Positions 31,778 to 44,531 of a DNA stretch of 64,000 nucleotides are shown here, in pieces (position 1 is the stretch's first letter; each line of letters starts with the position of its first letter). The position numbers and the translations under genes were made by a program. The stretch comes from Bacteroidia bacterium (GTDB taxonomy: Bacteria; Bacteroidota; Bacteroidia; B-17B0; Aurantibacillaceae): positions 62,001 through 126,000 of the forward strand of contig JAGNIU010000005.1 in NCBI GenBank assembly GCA_018000995.1. Reading direction: 5' to 3'. The notes beneath the pieces are model-generated. The model worked only from the letters and a program-made list of their open reading frames with translations. It had not been told where the DNA came from and did not search any database.

Positions 31778-33403
31778 TTACTCCTTAATAAACTTACTCG
31801 AATAATTTTTTCCTTCAGAAGTAATCTGCAATTGATACACACCTTGTTCTAAGGCTTCAATATTAATGTGAGATTTATTTCCTTTTAGTTCTAAAACTTT
31901 TCTTCCGGTAATGTCTAAAATAATTATTGCCTCAATTGTATTGCTACTTAAGTTTTCAATATTCAAAATGTTTGTTGCCGGATTTGGGTATAATTTAATT
32001 TGAGAGTCAATTGTTGCATGACTTTTAATACCTGTTACAGCACATTGAGAAAGTATATCAGCCTTTGGTAAATAACCACTTCTTTTTTGATCGTAACGAA
32101 ACATTAACCACTCCGGACAAGTACCAACTCCTCCTTTAACCATAAAAGCTTTTCCTGTTGCATTTGGATTAACAGTATAAGTTCCGTATCCCATAACAAA
32201 GAAAACATCCAACATTCCGTCTCCATCAAAATCAGAAACTAATGGTGCATTGTCGGCCGATATATAAGGAGTTGTACTTGGATAAGTAGGAAAATAAGAA
32301 AGCGCATCAAACGTCCAAAGATTTCCAAGGAAAGGTTCTACTGCATACACTTTGCCCATATAATGAGAAGACACCAAATCTAATTTTCCGTTTCCATTTA
32401 AATCACTTACAACACTACCTCTAAAAGAACCTTGTAATGGTACAGGATAATTCCATTCTGATTTGGCGTTGAATCCATTTATAACTTCGATACCGGTATT
32501 AGTATTAAGGCGATGGTAAATTACATCCAGTGTATCATCAGCGTTTACATCAGCAATAGAAACCGGACCAAAACATGAACCTCCTGTACTTGCCTTTGTC
32601 CATAAGATAGAGCCGTCTTCCGTATTAAATGCTTTTACAACTCCATCATTTGTACCTAATACATATTCCAATTTTCCGTCTTTATCTACATCTGCTAAAG
32701 CACCACCGTGGTATGCATAAAAACTACCAACTGCTGTTTCGGTGTGCGTCCATATAGGAGTTGCAGTAGTGTAATCGTAACAATGAAGATAATAAGTGCC
32801 GGCAGTAGCAAAATAACTTCCTACAATAAAATCTAATTTACCATCGCTATTTGCATCCACCAAAACCGGATCAGTTTGAATTGTATTTGTAAACACTTGC
32901 ACACTTTTCGCTAAAGAGCCATCCTCTCCGTTAAGAATTCGTACTTGTCCCGAAAAATTTCCAAAAACTATTTCAGGTTTTCCATCAGCATCCATGTCTG
33001 CAATAGTAGCCGGAGAGTCGCCACCACCGGAGGCCACCGACCATGTAAGAACGCCTGTATTTCCTTTTATACAAAAGGCAGTAGGATTGCACGACCCATT
33101 TACAAAAACATCTAATTGTCCGTCTAAATCTAAATCGTAAATATTTAAAGCTACATCGCCACAACCACCAATATTGTACGACCAATTTAAACTACCGTTT
33201 TCTGCATTTAGACAATATACTTTTCCATCATCATTATAAGTTGCGAATACAATTTCTTTCTTTCCGTCATTGTCCAAATCAGCAGCAGCGGCACTTCCAA
33301 AGCAGGCTGAATTTATTCCAAATGTCCAGGTTACCGCTGGTGATGTTTGTGCATTTATTTTGATACAAAATAATAGCAAGAGAATTATCAAGGATTGTTT
33401 CAT
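31778..33403 (-). CDS. FG-GAP/VCBS beta-propeller protein with T9SS sorting domain
   Basis: A protein of 541 residues starting at the signal peptide MKQSLIILLLLFCIKINAQ; the frame stays open 33 nt upstream without adding a plausible signal. The body has at least six blades with calcium-binding DxDxDG loops: DLDNDGKKEIVFA, DLDLDGQLDVFV, DMDADGKPEIVFG, DANSDGKLDFIVG, DVDKDGKLEYVLG, DLNGNGKLDLVSS and DFDGDGMLDVFFV. Some blades also read like PQQ/quinoprotein strands (LNAENGSLNWSY). The sorting domain is YPNPATNILNIENL, LDITGRKVLEL and QGVYQLQITSEG. A surface adhesin or integrin-like role is possible but unproven. Confidence 0.88.
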   Translation of the reverse strand: MKQSLIILLLLFCIKINAQTSPAVTWTFGINSACFGSAAAADLDNDGKKEIVFATYNDDGKVYCLNAENGSLNWSYNIGGCGDVALNIYDLDLDGQLDVFVNGSCNPTAFCIKGNTGVLTWSVASGGGDSPATIADMDADGKPEIVFGNFSGQVRILNGEDGSLAKSVQVFTNTIQTDPVLVDANSDGKLDFIVGSYFATAGTYYLHCYDYTTATPIWTHTETAVGSFYAYHGGALADVDKDGKLEYVLGTNDGVVKAFNTEDGSILWTKASTGGSCFGPVSIADVNADDTLDVIYHRLNTNTGIEVINGFNAKSEWNYPVPLQGSFRGSVVSDLNGNGKLDLVSSHYMGKVYAVEPFLGNLWTFDALSYFPTYPSTTPYISADNAPLVSDFDGDGMLDVFFVMGYGTYTVNPNATGKAFMVKGGVGTCPEWLMFRYDQKRSGYLPKADILSQCAVTGIKSHATIDSQIKLYPNPATNILNIENLSSNTIEAIIILDITGRKVLELKGNKSHINIEALEQGVYQLQITSEGKNYSSKFIKE

Positions 33404-33504
33404 GGGGTTTTGCTTTAAATTGAAATAAATATACAAAAAATACAGATGCTTTCATTTGAGCCTTAAACATCAATAAGATTAGTTACTAATCCCGAAAATT
33501 CTCG

Positions 33505-33523: not shown

Positions 33524-33609
33524 GGAGACTTGTCAGAGTGGTCGAACGAGCACGCCTGGAAAGTGTGTATACCCAAAAGGTATCGAGGGTTCGAATCCCT
33601 CAGTCTCCG
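33524..33609 (+). tRNA. tRNA-Ser(GGA)
   Basis: An 86-nt class II tRNA. Acceptor GGAGACT pairs with AGTCTCC and G33609 is the discriminator. The anticodon stem CACGC/GTGTG encloses CTGGAAA with anticodon GGA at 33558-33560. The long variable arm has a TACC/GGTA stem, and the T arm reads GAGGGTTCGAATCCCTC. No CCA is encoded. Confidence 0.97.
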
Positions 33610-33621
33610 CTGATAAATATT

Positions 33622-33646
33622 AAAAAGCACCGAAAGGTGCTTTTTT
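33622..33646 (+). terminator. Rho-independent terminator of tRNA-Ser
   Basis: AAAAAGCACC and GGTGCTTTTT pair perfectly around GAAA, followed by T. It lies 12 nt past the tRNA. Confidence 0.92.
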
Positions 33647-33812
33647 CGTTTTCTGCAACGTTGAAAATCTTGGTTTTAATAAGTGGAGGAAAATGAAAAA
33701 ACGTGTCTGAAAGACCGCTTTTAGTATTGTGACTCCGGGAGAAAACGGGATCAACGTAGTTAATCTATTTCTTATTTTTCCTATATTCACTCTCTCAAAA
33801 ACAGTACTTTTT

Positions 33813-35486
33813 ATGCTCGATAGTCGCTTACAGGAAAATGAGGTGTTACGCTATACTGTTACGTTTGAAGAAGCGGAATCATTTGCAGTAATTGCTTTGT
33901 TTGATGAGGGCTTCAAAAAAATACAAAGCGTAAAATTAAAAGTATTAAAAGCCGAAGACCTTTATTCGAAAATCGACAAACAAGAAGATTTTAGTCTGAA
34001 TAATGTTTACATCAATAATTTCTCTTTAACTGAATTCCGACGCAAACGTGAATTAAAAGAACATGATTACGTTACGATAAAAAACTTCAACGCCAACACT
34101 GTGTTTTTTGATTGCGAACAGGAAACAGATTTCTCCTATGCCAAATTTGAAGGTGACGCGGTTCTATTTAACAACAGTGTTTTTGGTAATGGCTATGTAA
34201 ATTTTACTTACGCCGATTTTGGTCATTCGAAAGTTGGATTTAAAAAAACGCGTTTTAGTAACGGAACTAAAAATTTCCAGTCGGTTATTTTTGGTGATGG
34301 GGATATTTCATTCAACAGCGCTAATTTTGGAAGTGGTAATTTAACTTTTGCTGATGCTTCGTTTAGCAATGGAAATGTGGATTTTAAAAATACGCTGTTT
34401 GGGAACGGGACAGTTGATTTTAAGTTCGCGAAATTCAGAGAAGGAAGTATTTCATTTGAGCGTGCGATTTTTGGAAAAGGGAAAAAAGATTTTAAGAATG
34501 TTGAATTTGGTGGCGGAAGAATAGATTTCCGTCGCGTGAGTTTTAATGATGGCGATGTTTCTTTTGAAGGCACTGAATTTGGAAACGGAAAAGTAACATT
34601 CAAAGGTTCTTCTTTTGGGGCAGGACATAAAATATTTGATTTGTCGGATTTTGCGGAGAGTGAAGTGAATTTTGATAATGTTGATTTTGGAAGTGGCAGT
34701 ATTAGTTTTAATCAAGCCAACGCTACTAATATTTCGTTTAACGCATGTTCGTTTAATTGTTTTACGGATTTCAGATTTAGTAAATGTAATTCGTTAAACC
34801 TAGCCAATTCGGTAGTGCGTGATATTATTGATATGGTTCCGGAAAACAATGCTGTAGCAATTCATGAAGTGAAAATGATTAACATGCGGATTGTCGGACG
34901 AATTTTTATTAATTGGCGCGACAATGGTGTGATTAAATTAATTTATAATCAAAAAGACTCAACCTGGTTTCAAAAAGCTGAACAGTTCAGAATTTTAAAA
35001 GAGAACTTCCGCGTTAACGGACAATACGAAGACGAAGATTTATCTTACATAGAATTTAAACGATGCGAAGCCAAAGCTGATTTAGAAGATGATTTAAAAT
35101 CTACAACTTTTAAAAAAATATTTGCTTATCCTAACTTCTATTTTCAGAAATACGTTTTTGATTATGTGGGGCGTTATGCAACTTCTCCAATACGGGTTTT
35201 ATTAAACGGCATCTTAACTATTTTTATTTTTGGGATTCTTTACTATTTGGTAAATACATTTTCAAACGGATTGGGTTCAATAGAAAGTACTTTACCGAGT
35301 CACCTTAATCGTTTTCAAGATTTCGGAAATAGCATTTACTACAGTGCTATTACTTTTTTCACCATAGGTTACGGAGATTACTTCCCAAATGGGATTTTAA
35401 AATTTGTTGCCGCTTTCGAAGGTTTCAGCGGTGTGTTCTTAATGAGTTACTTTACTGTAGCTTTTGTGAGGAAGATATTGAGATAA
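33813..35486 (+). CDS. Two-TM potassium channel with N-terminal 12-residue repeat solenoid
   Basis: A protein of 557 residues from the ATG at 33813; the frame is open to a GTG at 33729 but the extra residues are hydrophobic and unlike the rest. After about 110 residues, sixteen tandem 12-residue units of consensus FGxGxxxFxxxx run from 34146 to about 34722 (FGSGNLTFADAS, FSNGNVDFKNTL, FGNGTVDFKFAK and so on), resembling but not equal to pentapeptide repeats. A linker of about 140 residues leads to TM1 (LLNGILTIFIFGILYYLV), a pore helix and filter FTIGYGD (35361-35378) and TM2 (GFSGVFLMSYFTVAFV). A K+ channel with a cytosolic beta-solenoid, possibly a gating or scaffold domain, is inferred. 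Confidence 0.87.
   Translation: MLDSRLQENEVLRYTVTFEEAESFAVIALFDEGFKKIQSVKLKVLKAEDLYSKIDKQEDFSLNNVYINNFSLTEFRRKRELKEHDYVTIKNFNANTVFFDCEQETDFSYAKFEGDAVLFNNSVFGNGYVNFTYADFGHSKVGFKKTRFSNGTKNFQSVIFGDGDISFNSANFGSGNLTFADASFSNGNVDFKNTLFGNGTVDFKFAKFREGSISFERAIFGKGKKDFKNVEFGGGRIDFRRVSFNDGDVSFEGTEFGNGKVTFKGSSFGAGHKIFDLSDFAESEVNFDNVDFGSGSISFNQANATNISFNACSFNCFTDFRFSKCNSLNLANSVVRDIIDMVPENNAVAIHEVKMINMRIVGRIFINWRDNGVIKLIYNQKDSTWFQKAEQFRILKENFRVNGQYEDEDLSYIEFKRCEAKADLEDDLKSTTFKKIFAYPNFYFQKYVFDYVGRYATSPIRVLLNGILTIFIFGILYYLVNTFSNGLGSIESTLPSHLNRFQDFGNSIYYSAITFFTIGYGDYFPNGILKFVAAFEGFSGVFLMSYFTVAFVRKILR
34146..34722 (+). repeat. Sixteen 36-bp coding repeats (12-residue units)
   Basis: The periodicity is in the protein (Phe at positions 1 and 8, Gly at 2 and 4); nucleotide identity between units is low, so the array is old and held by selection on the protein. 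Confidence 0.8.
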
Positions 35487-35614: not shown

Positions 35615-36319
35615 ATGAAAAAAGTAGCTGCAATTTGTTTGATAATACTCACAATGTGTTTGAATGCTCAGATTCCAACCACCAATAAGAAAACAAACAA
35701 TTCAAATAAGCCTATCCAAAAAGCGCCTTTGAAAAAGCCAATAGCGGGATACAAATATCTTAACTTGAAAGGCAAGGTGAAATCAATAGAGGATAAAACG
35801 CTAATGAACGGAAAATTGCATTACATTCATCTAATTACTTTTGATAAAGATGGTAAGATTCTAAAAGATATTAATACAATTACTTCTTTTGGCGTGATTG
35901 ACGAAACAACTTACACCTACAACGAGGCTGGTTTTGTAGAAACTGAAACCTTTATAAGCAAGGACAAAGAAGGAACTAAGGAATACATTTATAAAGAAGA
36001 ATATGATATAAACGGGAACAATATTGCCACTTTAATCTTGGGCGATAATTCAAAAACAAATAGGGTGTTTGATGACAAGGGATATGTGATTAGTGAAAGT
36101 AATGAAGAAAATGGAAAAATATCAAGTGTTAAAACATATATAAACAACAAACATGGCGATCCAACTTTCGAATCAGATTCATATGGCGGAACCAATATTT
36201 ATACTTATAAATACGACACCAAATTTAATTGGATTGAATGTAACAAAATGGCCAAAGCAAAAGAAGACAATACCACGGGCTATAACTTTAAATCATTTAG
36301 AACAATCCAATATTATTAA
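35615..36319 (+). CDS. Secreted YD-repeat-like protein of unknown function
   Basis: A protein of 234 residues with signal peptide MKKVAAICLIILTMCLNAQ, a basic Asn/Lys/Pro-rich linker to about 45, and then beta-hairpin units resembling RHS/YD repeats (YNEAGFVETETFISKD, YDINGNNIATLILGD, FDDKGYVISESNEENGK, YKYDTKFNWIEC). No catalytic motif is seen. It precedes another secreted protein by 33 nt; the two may be co-transcribed. Codon use and AT content resemble the neighbouring genes. Confidence 0.72.
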   Translation: MKKVAAICLIILTMCLNAQIPTTNKKTNNSNKPIQKAPLKKPIAGYKYLNLKGKVKSIEDKTLMNGKLHYIHLITFDKDGKILKDINTITSFGVIDETTYTYNEAGFVETETFISKDKEGTKEYIYKEEYDINGNNIATLILGDNSKTNRVFDDKGYVISESNEENGKISSVKTYINNKHGDPTFESDSYGGTNIYTYKYDTKFNWIECNKMAKAKEDNTTGYNFKSFRTIQYY

Positions 36320-36351
36320 ATTTTGAATTAGTTAAAATTGACATGGTTAAA

Positions 36352-37404
36352 ATGAAAATAAGTAAAATAATTCTATTCATAACTTTAAATTGTTCCTTTT
36401 GCTTTAGCCAAATTAAAGACGGAAAGTGCTATATAACCCCACCCATCCAAACCTCCTCGCAAATACATTTTAAATATGCTTATTCAATTGCTTCAAGTAT
36501 GTATGTTGGCCAAACTTTTACTTTTAGAGCTACCAATGTTAGCACTAATAGGATTCGCGCAAAATTTGATCTCATTGCTTTAACCAATTGCAATACAGAA
36601 GTAAAAGAAAGTTTTGATATTATGGTGGAGCAAAATGAAAGCATTGGATTTGGAGAGGCTTTTTTTGATAATAGTTATATTGCATCAGTCACTAAAAATC
36701 ATTGCGCACAGGATGTGGTTGTTGACTACTCTTTTAAGGGTAAAATTATTAAGGGCAAGAATAGAATAAAGGACGTATATATAAGAAATCTTGTCGTTAA
36801 TCCGATTCCAAAGAAAATAGCTAAGTCTGCAAATTCACAAAGTAAAAAAAATTCATCAGTAGACGAACATAATCAATCCATTATGAGCGAATTAGAAAAA
36901 AACTTTAATGAGCCAAGTATTAAAAAGACCTCTAATGATACAAAGAAAGATAACTCAATTGAAGATAAATCAAATACTTCGAATAAAGATAAGGTAACTA
37001 TTCATTCTTATAAAGAAGGATTTGTAAATAATCAATTTAAACTAATAAAAGGTTCTATAGTTTACAATAGTAGTAAGAATGAAACTGAAGCTTTATTAGC
37101 CGAAGATGTAACTTTCAAGATACAAGATTGTTTTGGTACAATAATTTCGAGTAAAGCTGGGACTATAATTAGATTTAGCGGTAGTCTAGATAAAAATAGT
37201 CTAGTTACTAATTGTGTTCTTGGTAAAACAACTAATTTACCTATATATCATTATAGGGGTGATGATTCAAAGATAGAAGAAGTAAAAGAAGGCACTGTTA
37301 TTTTCTTCAATCCGGGTTTTTATCATCATTTAGGAAAAGGGTTACATAAGTCTAATCCTAACTATAAGGATTGGGATCCAGAACGTATAATATACATTAA
37401 ATAG
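36352..37404 (+). CDS. Secreted protein of unknown function with Ser/Lys/Asn-rich linker
   Basis: A protein of 350 residues from the ATG that starts the signal peptide MKISKIILFITLNCSFCFSQ; another ATG lies 9 nt upstream. An N-terminal domain with four cysteines (to about 160) is joined by a low-complexity K/S/N/D linker (about 160-220) to a C-terminal domain containing FKIQDCFGTIISSKAGTIIR and GTVIFFNPGFYHHLGKG. I recognise neither domain. It converges on an OmpA-family gene with a 10-nt gap. Confidence 0.68.
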   Translation: MKISKIILFITLNCSFCFSQIKDGKCYITPPIQTSSQIHFKYAYSIASSMYVGQTFTFRATNVSTNRIRAKFDLIALTNCNTEVKESFDIMVEQNESIGFGEAFFDNSYIASVTKNHCAQDVVVDYSFKGKIIKGKNRIKDVYIRNLVVNPIPKKIAKSANSQSKKNSSVDEHNQSIMSELEKNFNEPSIKKTSNDTKKDNSIEDKSNTSNKDKVTIHSYKEGFVNNQFKLIKGSIVYNSSKNETEALLAEDVTFKIQDCFGTIISSKAGTIIRFSGSLDKNSLVTNCVLGKTTNLPIYHYRGDDSKIEEVKEGTVIFFNPGFYHHLGKGLHKSNPNYKDWDPERIIYIK

Positions 37405-43301: not shown

Positions 43302-43457
43302 TATAAATTTAATACATTAAAAATAATTCATTAATTATAAAGAATGGAGCTTTCTGTTTTTTATAATAAAGTAGTTTTCAACATCTAAGGACGCTAAATC
43401 CATTACAAAAGGCGAAATCGAATTTTAATACTATATTTAAAGCTCAAAATTAAAGAG

Positions 43458-44531
43458 ATGAAAAAATATTTACTTGTATTGTTTGCAACACTATGCGGCG
43501 TAAGTTTCGCTCAAAGTCCAATTACATTATCAAATTCAAACATGCCGGGCAGTGGGGATACATTACGCTACAGCAATGTTCAATTAAGCACAATTGGTAA
43601 CTATACGCAAACAGGAATTAATTACAATTGGAATTTTTCTTCTGTTATTATTACCAGTCAGGGTCGCCGCGATTACAAATCTGCATTTAGTACACCTTAT
43701 GCTTTTTTCTTTATTGGCTTTAATGAGTATGGCGAAAAAGTAAATGATACCATAAATCTTGGTCTTATAACTTTAACTGACGTATATAATTTTTATAAAA
43801 AATCAACTTCACCAAACGCTTATTTAGTGGATGGTTTAGGAATGAAGATAAGTGCTATTCCCGTACCTTCATATTATTCTGATAAGGACGAGTTGTATAT
43901 GTTTCCTATGACTTATCCTAAATACGACAGCACTACATTTAAATTTTCAACGCCAACTACAACATTATTGCCTCTTACTTATTCAAAGAAAGGATACAGA
44001 GTAACAGTAGTTGACGGTTGGGGAAATATTACAACTCCTTATGGTACCGCTCCTTGTTTAAGGGTTGTAACCACACAATACTCTCAGGATACTATTAAAA
44101 ACTCATTACTACCTTTTCCGATTGGCTTTCCAAACAATCAAAGAAGTTATCAATGGCTAACAACAACTTCAAAAATTCCATATTTAGAGGTGAATGGTAG
44201 TTTAATAGGCAACAATTTTACACCAACGCAAATACGTTTCAGAGACAATTACAGAAACTTAACAGGCGTAAATACGGTGGGAGAAGAAGAAGAATTAGTT
44301 ACTGTTTACCCAAATCCGGTTAATGATAAATTGTTTTTGAATTTTAAGAAGGACGCAAAATATTCAGTTCAGATTTTTGATATGAATGGAAAATTGGTTG
44401 CGGATTATTCGGTTGAGCAAATGAAAAACAACAAGCAGTATTTATCAGTAGAAAATTTAGCTCAAGGCTTATACACCGTAAAGATTTTAGAAAACGATAA
44501 GCCAAACGTTATCAAATTCGTGAAGCAATAA
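43458..44531 (+). CDS. Secreted protein with T9SS type A sorting domain
   Basis: A protein of 357 residues with signal peptide MKKYLLVLFATLCGVSFAQ. The region 20-280 begins SPITLSNSNMPGSGDTLRYS and contains DGWGNITTPYGTAPCLRVVT, a pattern found in many Bacteroidota secreted proteins of unknown function. The sorting domain is VYPNPVNDKLFLNF, IFDMNGKLVADYSV, LAQGLYTVKILEN and a final VIKFVKQ. Its stop codon abuts the stop of the convergent HMG-CoA lyase gene with no base between them (TAATTA at 44529-44534). Confidence 0.84.
   Translation: MKKYLLVLFATLCGVSFAQSPITLSNSNMPGSGDTLRYSNVQLSTIGNYTQTGINYNWNFSSVIITSQGRRDYKSAFSTPYAFFFIGFNEYGEKVNDTINLGLITLTDVYNFYKKSTSPNAYLVDGLGMKISAIPVPSYYSDKDELYMFPMTYPKYDSTTFKFSTPTTTLLPLTYSKKGYRVTVVDGWGNITTPYGTAPCLRVVTTQYSQDTIKNSLLPFPIGFPNNQRSYQWLTTTSKIPYLEVNGSLIGNNFTPTQIRFRDNYRNLTGVNTVGEEEELVTVYPNPVNDKLFLNFKKDAKYSVQIFDMNGKLVADYSVEQMKNNKQYLSVENLAQGLYTVKILENDKPNVIKFVKQ

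Follow-up and report, generated by a model that had tools for sequence, protein, structure and literature searches.

Gene organization and genomic neighborhood

The gene described here encodes a two-transmembrane (two-TM) potassium channel of 557 amino acids that is fused to a solenoid. It occupies positions 33813–35486 on the forward strand of the window, by which we mean the entire 64,000-nucleotide stretch of DNA that was analyzed, and it is translated without internal stops. The start methionine aligns with that of 18 close relatives, and the family has 70 distinct full-length members. An ORF tool gave a longer frame with a GTG start at 33729, which is unsupported, as the start methionine of the relatives matches 33813.

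Between the channel and an upstream FG-GAP gene are a tRNA-Ser (GGA; 33524–33610) and a hairpin (33622–33645) that is terminator-like in both directions. The FG-GAP protein (31778–33436, reverse strand) carries a sorting tail for type IX secretion (Por_Secre_tail), and an open reading frame at 43398–44528 on the forward strand is related to it. Two tandem predicted secreted proteins of 234 and 353 amino acids are encoded at 35615–37404, neither matching a Pfam or NCBIfam family above cut-off. The initial annotation of this DNA had pointed to two secreted genes following the channel; the tandem pair is indeed present but is not a conserved neighbor. We rejected an operon with the channel, as these genes do not lie beside it in the 18 relatives. 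No recurrent neighbors of any kind were found across the 18 loci. The genome from which the window comes encodes three other Ion_trans_2 proteins.

Structure and conservation of the pore and linker

The C-terminal part of the protein matches Ion_trans_2 (PF07885) at residues 468–555 with 49 bits (cut-off 22.5, E = 6e-13), as do all 19 members of set A1. TM1 (residues 459–483; 35187–35261) was assigned from hydropathy and a predicted helix. It is followed by the pore helix and selectivity filter (residues 500–522; 35310–35378), in which the helix is predicted at 500–516 and the filter, TIGYGD, spans 517–522, and by TM2 (residues 529–556; 35397–35480). The filter is kept as T[IV]G[YF]G in all 70 members. 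The complete two-TM pore with TIGYGD reported in the initial annotation is therefore confirmed by the 49-bit Ion_trans_2 match. TM2 ends one residue before the protein does, leaving no further cytosolic domain on the C-terminal side. Pfam also detects no RCK/TrkA or CNBD domain in the protein, which bears out the earlier remark that the usual RCK or cyclic-nucleotide regulators are not present.

Conservation across the family is highest in TM2 (0.82), followed by the filter region (0.73), a hairpin linker (0.69), the repeat array (0.62), and the turret (0.39). The final TM2 residues, MSYFTVAFVRKILR, form a nearly invariant inner end, and the last 14 residues are identical in 56 of the 70 members. 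Conservation of this inner end together with the last residues (543–557; 35439–35483) exceeds that of the filter region, seemingly an uncommon pattern among K+ channels.

Preceding the pore is an alpha-hairpin linker (residues 385–428; 34965–35096; QFRILKENFR..GQYEDED..Y.EFKRCE), predicted as helices at 385–401 and 405–428 and common to pentapeptide channels (linker-only profile, E = 1.2e-6). Another predicted helix, with the conserved motif FD..G.YAT.P.RV, lies immediately before TM1 (residues 432–455; 35106–35177) and is a candidate slide helix. By hydropathy, no segment N-terminal to residue 455 is strongly hydrophobic. From this and the topology of the pore, we place the solenoid in the cytosol, and as a two-TM K+ channel the protein is a putative tetramer.

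A regular array of 12-residue repeats

The N-terminal half begins with an alpha/beta domain and the start of the solenoid (residues 1–98; 33813–34106), which AlphaFold2 models with high pLDDT and which is moderately conserved. Sixteen units of the form F-G-x-G-x-V-x-F-x-x-A-x then occupy residues 112–303 (34146–34721). Counting from residue 112, phenylalanine is at unit positions 1 and 8 in 16 of 16 units each, glycine at position 2 in 10 and at position 4 in 13, and valine, isoleucine, or leucine at position 6 in 13. The repeat count and a shuffle test thus uphold the sixteen 12-residue repeats originally noted, and the pattern described as strict is so for phenylalanine but less so for glycine.

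Over residues 123–303, there are 58 identities among 169 pairs at lag 12, compared to 15.8 ± 3.7 when the residues were shuffled 10,000 times (with at most 33 in any shuffle), so the period of 12 far exceeds chance. The autocorrelation of the family profile is positive at multiples of 12 only, with a value of 1.94 at lag 12 and −0.13 at lag 5. The array therefore has a period of 12 and lacks the 5-residue period of pentapeptide proteins. The array is 179–183 residues long in all 70 members, and nearly all of its phenylalanines are kept. Copy number in repeat proteins often varies, and the near-constant length suggests a domain of set size whose length matters.

Exposed positions of the array are most conserved in repeats 8–12 and the start of repeat 13 (residues 196–264; 34398–34604). 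The exposed conserved patch is modest and concentrated in repeats 8–12, and it includes the charged residues D238, R241, K260, and R264, each with a weighted frequency of 0.86–0.91 in the family. Irregular C-terminal coils (residues 304–372; 34722–34928) containing the conserved residues D319, D337, W368, and N371 are predicted to close the solenoid.

Solenoid structure and coil length

An AlphaFold2 monomer model built with 19 sequences has a pLDDT of 85 for the whole chain and 91 for residues 1–375, with a pTM of 0.88. Structure prediction was among the checks proposed in the initial annotation, and it models the array confidently (pLDDT >90), as short strands that pass into the irregular coils at 304–372. 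The correlation between strand positions in the model is 0.77 at lag 24, above the values at lag 12 (0.57) and lag 36 (0.64).

As a test independent of the model, we used covariation, calculated as APC-corrected mutual information among the 70 members (effective number, 37) and averaged by sequence separation. Past short range there is a single dominant peak at lag 24 (z = 9.3), with a smaller value at lag 48 (z = 2.7) and none at lag 12 (z = −3.1) or lag 20 (z = −0.8). In each of 60 random half-samples, lag 24 again ranked first. Because lags 12, 36, and 60 pair the same repeat positions yet show no peak, the lag-24 signal does not come from repeat composition. The peak at 24, with none at 12 or 20, therefore points to two repeats per turn. 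From the covariation (37 effective sequences) and the DSSP strings of the predicted model, we conclude that the coil is likely 24 residues long, which would give about eight turns. A 12-residue coil with one repeat per turn was rejected on the negative covariation at lag 12, and the four-sided pentapeptide coil of 20 residues has no counterpart in the data, which peak at 24.

In cross-section, the solenoid probably has four sides, as in pentapeptide proteins, of 5, 7, 5, and 7 residues, although the assignment of sides is inferred. In such a plan, the F-x-x-A-x-F stretch would keep pentapeptide spacing, and F-G-x-G-x-V-x-F would have two extra residues at the turn. Phenylalanine and valine or alanine probably face inside, with the G-x-G turns lengthening two of the sides from 5 to 7 residues. 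The initial annotation had also suggested a solenoid different from the classical pentapeptide helix, and the period of 12, the 24-residue coil indicated by covariation, and the lack of a Pfam pentapeptide match at E < 1 all agree with this.

Foldseek searches with the whole model and with the solenoid alone gave no PDB match at E ≤ 0.001, and the whole model likewise had no match among viral models at this threshold. The nearest folds, all weak, are right-handed beta-helices (AlgE4 and polygalacturonase) and NleL. Pentapeptide proteins of the Qnr/MfpA type are absent from the top 50 matches; in their place there is just NleL, as a weak match. The Knotted Solenoid fold was set aside; it is formed by Brevundimonas proteins that are dimers of knotted triangular coils (PMC13123833).

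Distribution of the family

We identified 70 distinct full-length members in Bacteroidia, with identity down to 34%. The fusion of the repeat to Ion_trans_2, for which the initial annotation had suggested a search, is thus confirmed; fusions with pentapeptide solenoids also exist and are annotated. A scan of genome contigs gave 18 full-length relatives, all from Bacteroidota assemblies, whose overall identity with the window protein is 53–77%. In the order to which the window belongs, a match is present in 38 of 87 genomes and is full length in nearly all of them. In a sample of the class, about 18 of 296 genomes carry a full-length copy. In a sample of the phylum (also 296 genomes), the only full-length copy is in the window's own genome, and the others are pore-only matches to other channels. 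Phages and viral contigs gave no match, and a phage origin was rejected.

A search of the class with the repeat only found the array solely in frames of channel size (552–600 amino acids), and almost all of those genomes already had a full-length channel match. The array was therefore not seen apart from the pore within the sampled class. Four channel relatives (L066, L118, L128, and L137) have in-frame stops and look like decayed copies, frameshifts, or assembly errors. A further group of channels from Bacteroidota (L071, L073, L074, L076, L080, L081, L083, and L084) has beta-helix-like N-termini, a related-looking linker (K.RGD..S.NACYVEMK), T-L-G-[YF]-G filters, and a long additional stretch that separates the pore from the first hydrophobic helix. 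In genome G109, a channel of this group (L076) occurs alongside an ortholog of the window channel.

Relation to pentapeptide-repeat proteins and channels

The window protein has no match at E < 1 to the Pfam pentapeptide families PF00805, PF13599, and PF13576. Two of 19 relatives, L013 and L014, exceed the Pentapeptide_3 (PF13576) cut-off of 27 with 45.8 and 41.6 bits, respectively; the unit described for this family has 5 residues versus 12 in the window channel. A tblastn search of the repeat against plasmids returned 81 records, 68 of them from Streptomyces, most annotated as “pentapeptide repeat-containing.” Two Streptomyces proteins (WP_329583145.1 and WP_266430634.1) are built of the 12-mer F-x-G-G-x-V-x-F-x-x-A-x and match Pentapeptide_3 strongly. 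This is the same 12-mer as in the window channel, with ~28–38% identity over the array. However, the two proteins have an N-terminal hydrophobic segment and no pore, and they contain 24 and 19 strict units versus 11 in the window channel. As both the Streptomyces 12-mers and L013 and L014 match Pentapeptide_3, databases already file this repeat as pentapeptide. L107, L108, and the ~68 Streptomyces plasmid records have very regular F-S-G-G-T-V-x-F-x-x-A-x arrays, and the examined ones contain as many as 24 strict units. The Streptomyces arrays follow an N-terminal hydrophobic segment and often occur in several places per plasmid.

Channels in which a pentapeptide or pentapeptide-like domain precedes an Ion_trans_2 pore are found on haloarchaeal plasmids, in Aeromonas and Priestia, and in another Bacteroidota genome (L079). 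Where annotated, they are called “pentapeptide repeat-containing” or “potassium channel family.” These proteins, such as Halalkalicoccus jeotgali WP_081461395.1, have the same order as the window channel, with an N-terminal beta-solenoid, a hairpin, and a two-TM pore, ending after TM2, and they share the linker motifs AE.YR.L.. and YG..P.R. Their solenoids are built of true pentapeptides (PF00805, E = 2e-29 in P0002), whereas the window channel has a 12-mer, a 24-residue coil, and a fixed length.

Profile-to-profile comparison of the linker plus pore against the pentapeptide channels gave 99.7% probability and E = 8e-27. The linker alone gave 91% probability and E = 1e-6 against the haloarchaeal and Aeromonas channels, in a comparison that took in the distant channels except those with degenerate filters. 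Single-sequence hhalign of the linker against the distant channels gave no significant match. The window protein therefore shares the whole fusion architecture of N-terminal solenoid, homologous hairpin, and C-terminal pore, and homology of the linkers implies that linker and pore form a module that keeps its form across phyla while the solenoid varies. In two haloarchaeal pentapeptide channels, L140 (Actinarchaeum halophilum) and L142 (Haloarcula sp. JP-L23), the K+ filter is degraded or missing (it reads TIMDGG in one and is absent from the other), and these are perhaps non-conducting subunits.

The earlier idea that the array stands apart from pentapeptide channels does not survive these results, as the Streptomyces 12-mer is filed under Pentapeptide_3, two close relatives score above its cut-off, and homologous fusions are widespread. 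The window protein is a variant, without earlier description, of annotated but uncharacterized pentapeptide-repeat channel fusions. A literature search that took in few subscription papers turned up no experimental work on any channel fused to a pentapeptide or 12-mer array.

Proposed mechanism and alternative explanations

We propose, at about even confidence, a tetrameric two-TM K+ channel in which the rigid, fixed-length cytosolic solenoid at the N-terminus of each subunit is a regulatory domain acting on the gate. A signal would bind to, or be sensed by, the solenoid, for which the likeliest site may be the conserved charged surface around repeats 8–13. In the predicted structure, the solenoid passes into the alpha-hairpin and then into the amphipathic helix that joins TM1, and movement of these two elements against the inner end of TM2 could open or close the pore. 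Since all of the cytosolic mass lies before TM1 and nothing follows TM2, the signal would arrive at the gate from the N-terminus. We know of no solved example of such a gating layout. The hairpin and TM2, which would be the coupling path and the gate, are conserved about as tightly as the filter. We count this in favor of gating, but the conservation of the hairpin and TM2 end could also reflect assembly or lipid contacts, and the modest size of the exposed conserved patch counts against gating. No conserved neighbor gene in the 18 loci points to a gating role. A fuller proposal combines two ideas: that the array is a distinct, structurally undescribed class of beta-solenoid, with two 12-mers per 24-residue turn in a broadened version of the pentapeptide plan, and that it serves as a lever of fixed length or as a ligand sensor, gating the K+ pore from the N-terminus through the hairpin. 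This proposal is tentative and, taken as a whole, rather unlikely.

The main rival to gating is that the solenoid is a scaffold for assembly or localization, tethering the channel to a partner or to other channels, with a pore that is constitutively open or gated independently by pH, voltage, or lipid. This is a serious possibility, though we would not expect it. Beta-solenoids, including pentapeptide proteins, often act as binding surfaces, and the fixed length and conserved charged patch would also suit docking. However, the hairpin is more conserved than the solenoid and is common to distant pentapeptide channels, which exceeds what a tether needs, and no conserved partner gene was found nearby in the 18 loci. 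We find it improbable that the channel is a defense or stress effector that opens on infection and depolarizes the cell, with the solenoid sensing the trigger. Membrane-pore effectors are common in bacterial defense, and the patchy presence of the gene in its order (38 of 87 genomes) would fit one, but the loci lack recurrent neighbors, the K+-type filter is kept across the family, and membership in a defense system was rejected, as PADLOC gave no match.

The remaining explanations concern the repeat itself. Scores of the Streptomyces 12-mer proteins and two close relatives above the Pentapeptide_3 cut-off, together with channel fusions that carry true pentapeptide solenoids, could mean that an ordinary quadrilateral pentapeptide helix with 20-residue coils has been taken for something new. 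We rejected this geometry on the 12-residue period, with its negative autocorrelation at lag 5, and on the covariation at lag 24 rather than 20; the top 50 Foldseek matches, with NleL appearing weakly and no Qnr/MfpA-type protein, also speak against it, and we regard it as very improbable. Equally far-fetched is a calcium-sensing channel whose G-x-G turns bind calcium as RTX beta-rolls do. RTX beta-rolls are built of the nonapeptide GGxGxDxUx, with aspartates as ligands, and F-G-x-G-x is superficially like the motif G-G-x-G-x-D. The window repeat, with a period of 12 rather than 9, has aspartate at the corresponding place in only 2 of 16 units, often with lysine, threonine, asparagine, or serine instead, and Pfam shows no RTX family match, so a calcium roll of this type was rejected.

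Solenoid-fused K+ channels are spread over archaea and several bacterial phyla, and we found no paper on what any of them does. Three features of the window family make function testable: the solenoid has a constant length, the linker and the end of TM2 are sharply conserved, and sequence covariation alone is enough to read off the coil length. Furthermore, proteins labeled “pentapeptide repeat” probably include one or more solenoids whose coil differs, having 24 rather than 20 residues.

Comparison with other known systems

The window channel shares its two-TM K+ pore and filter with MthK and with inward-rectifier and KirBac-type channels, and structures of MthK and Kir gave weak, pore-only matches. 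The helix before TM1 may correspond to the slide helix of Kir and KirBac-type channels, which it resembles. However, the regulatory domains of these channels (RCK in MthK, the C-terminal domain in Kir) follow TM2, whereas the cytosolic mass of the window channel is all before TM1. A 12-residue repeat in a beta-solenoid is also known from the Tenebrio molitor antifreeze protein, a cysteine-linked beta-helix with a 12-residue coil and one repeat per turn. Unlike that protein, the window array would have two repeats per turn, and it has two phenylalanines per repeat and no regular cysteine. Both the repeat and the type of fusion are already in databases under the pentapeptide name, and what is new in the window channel is a different solenoid on a shared hairpin-pore module.
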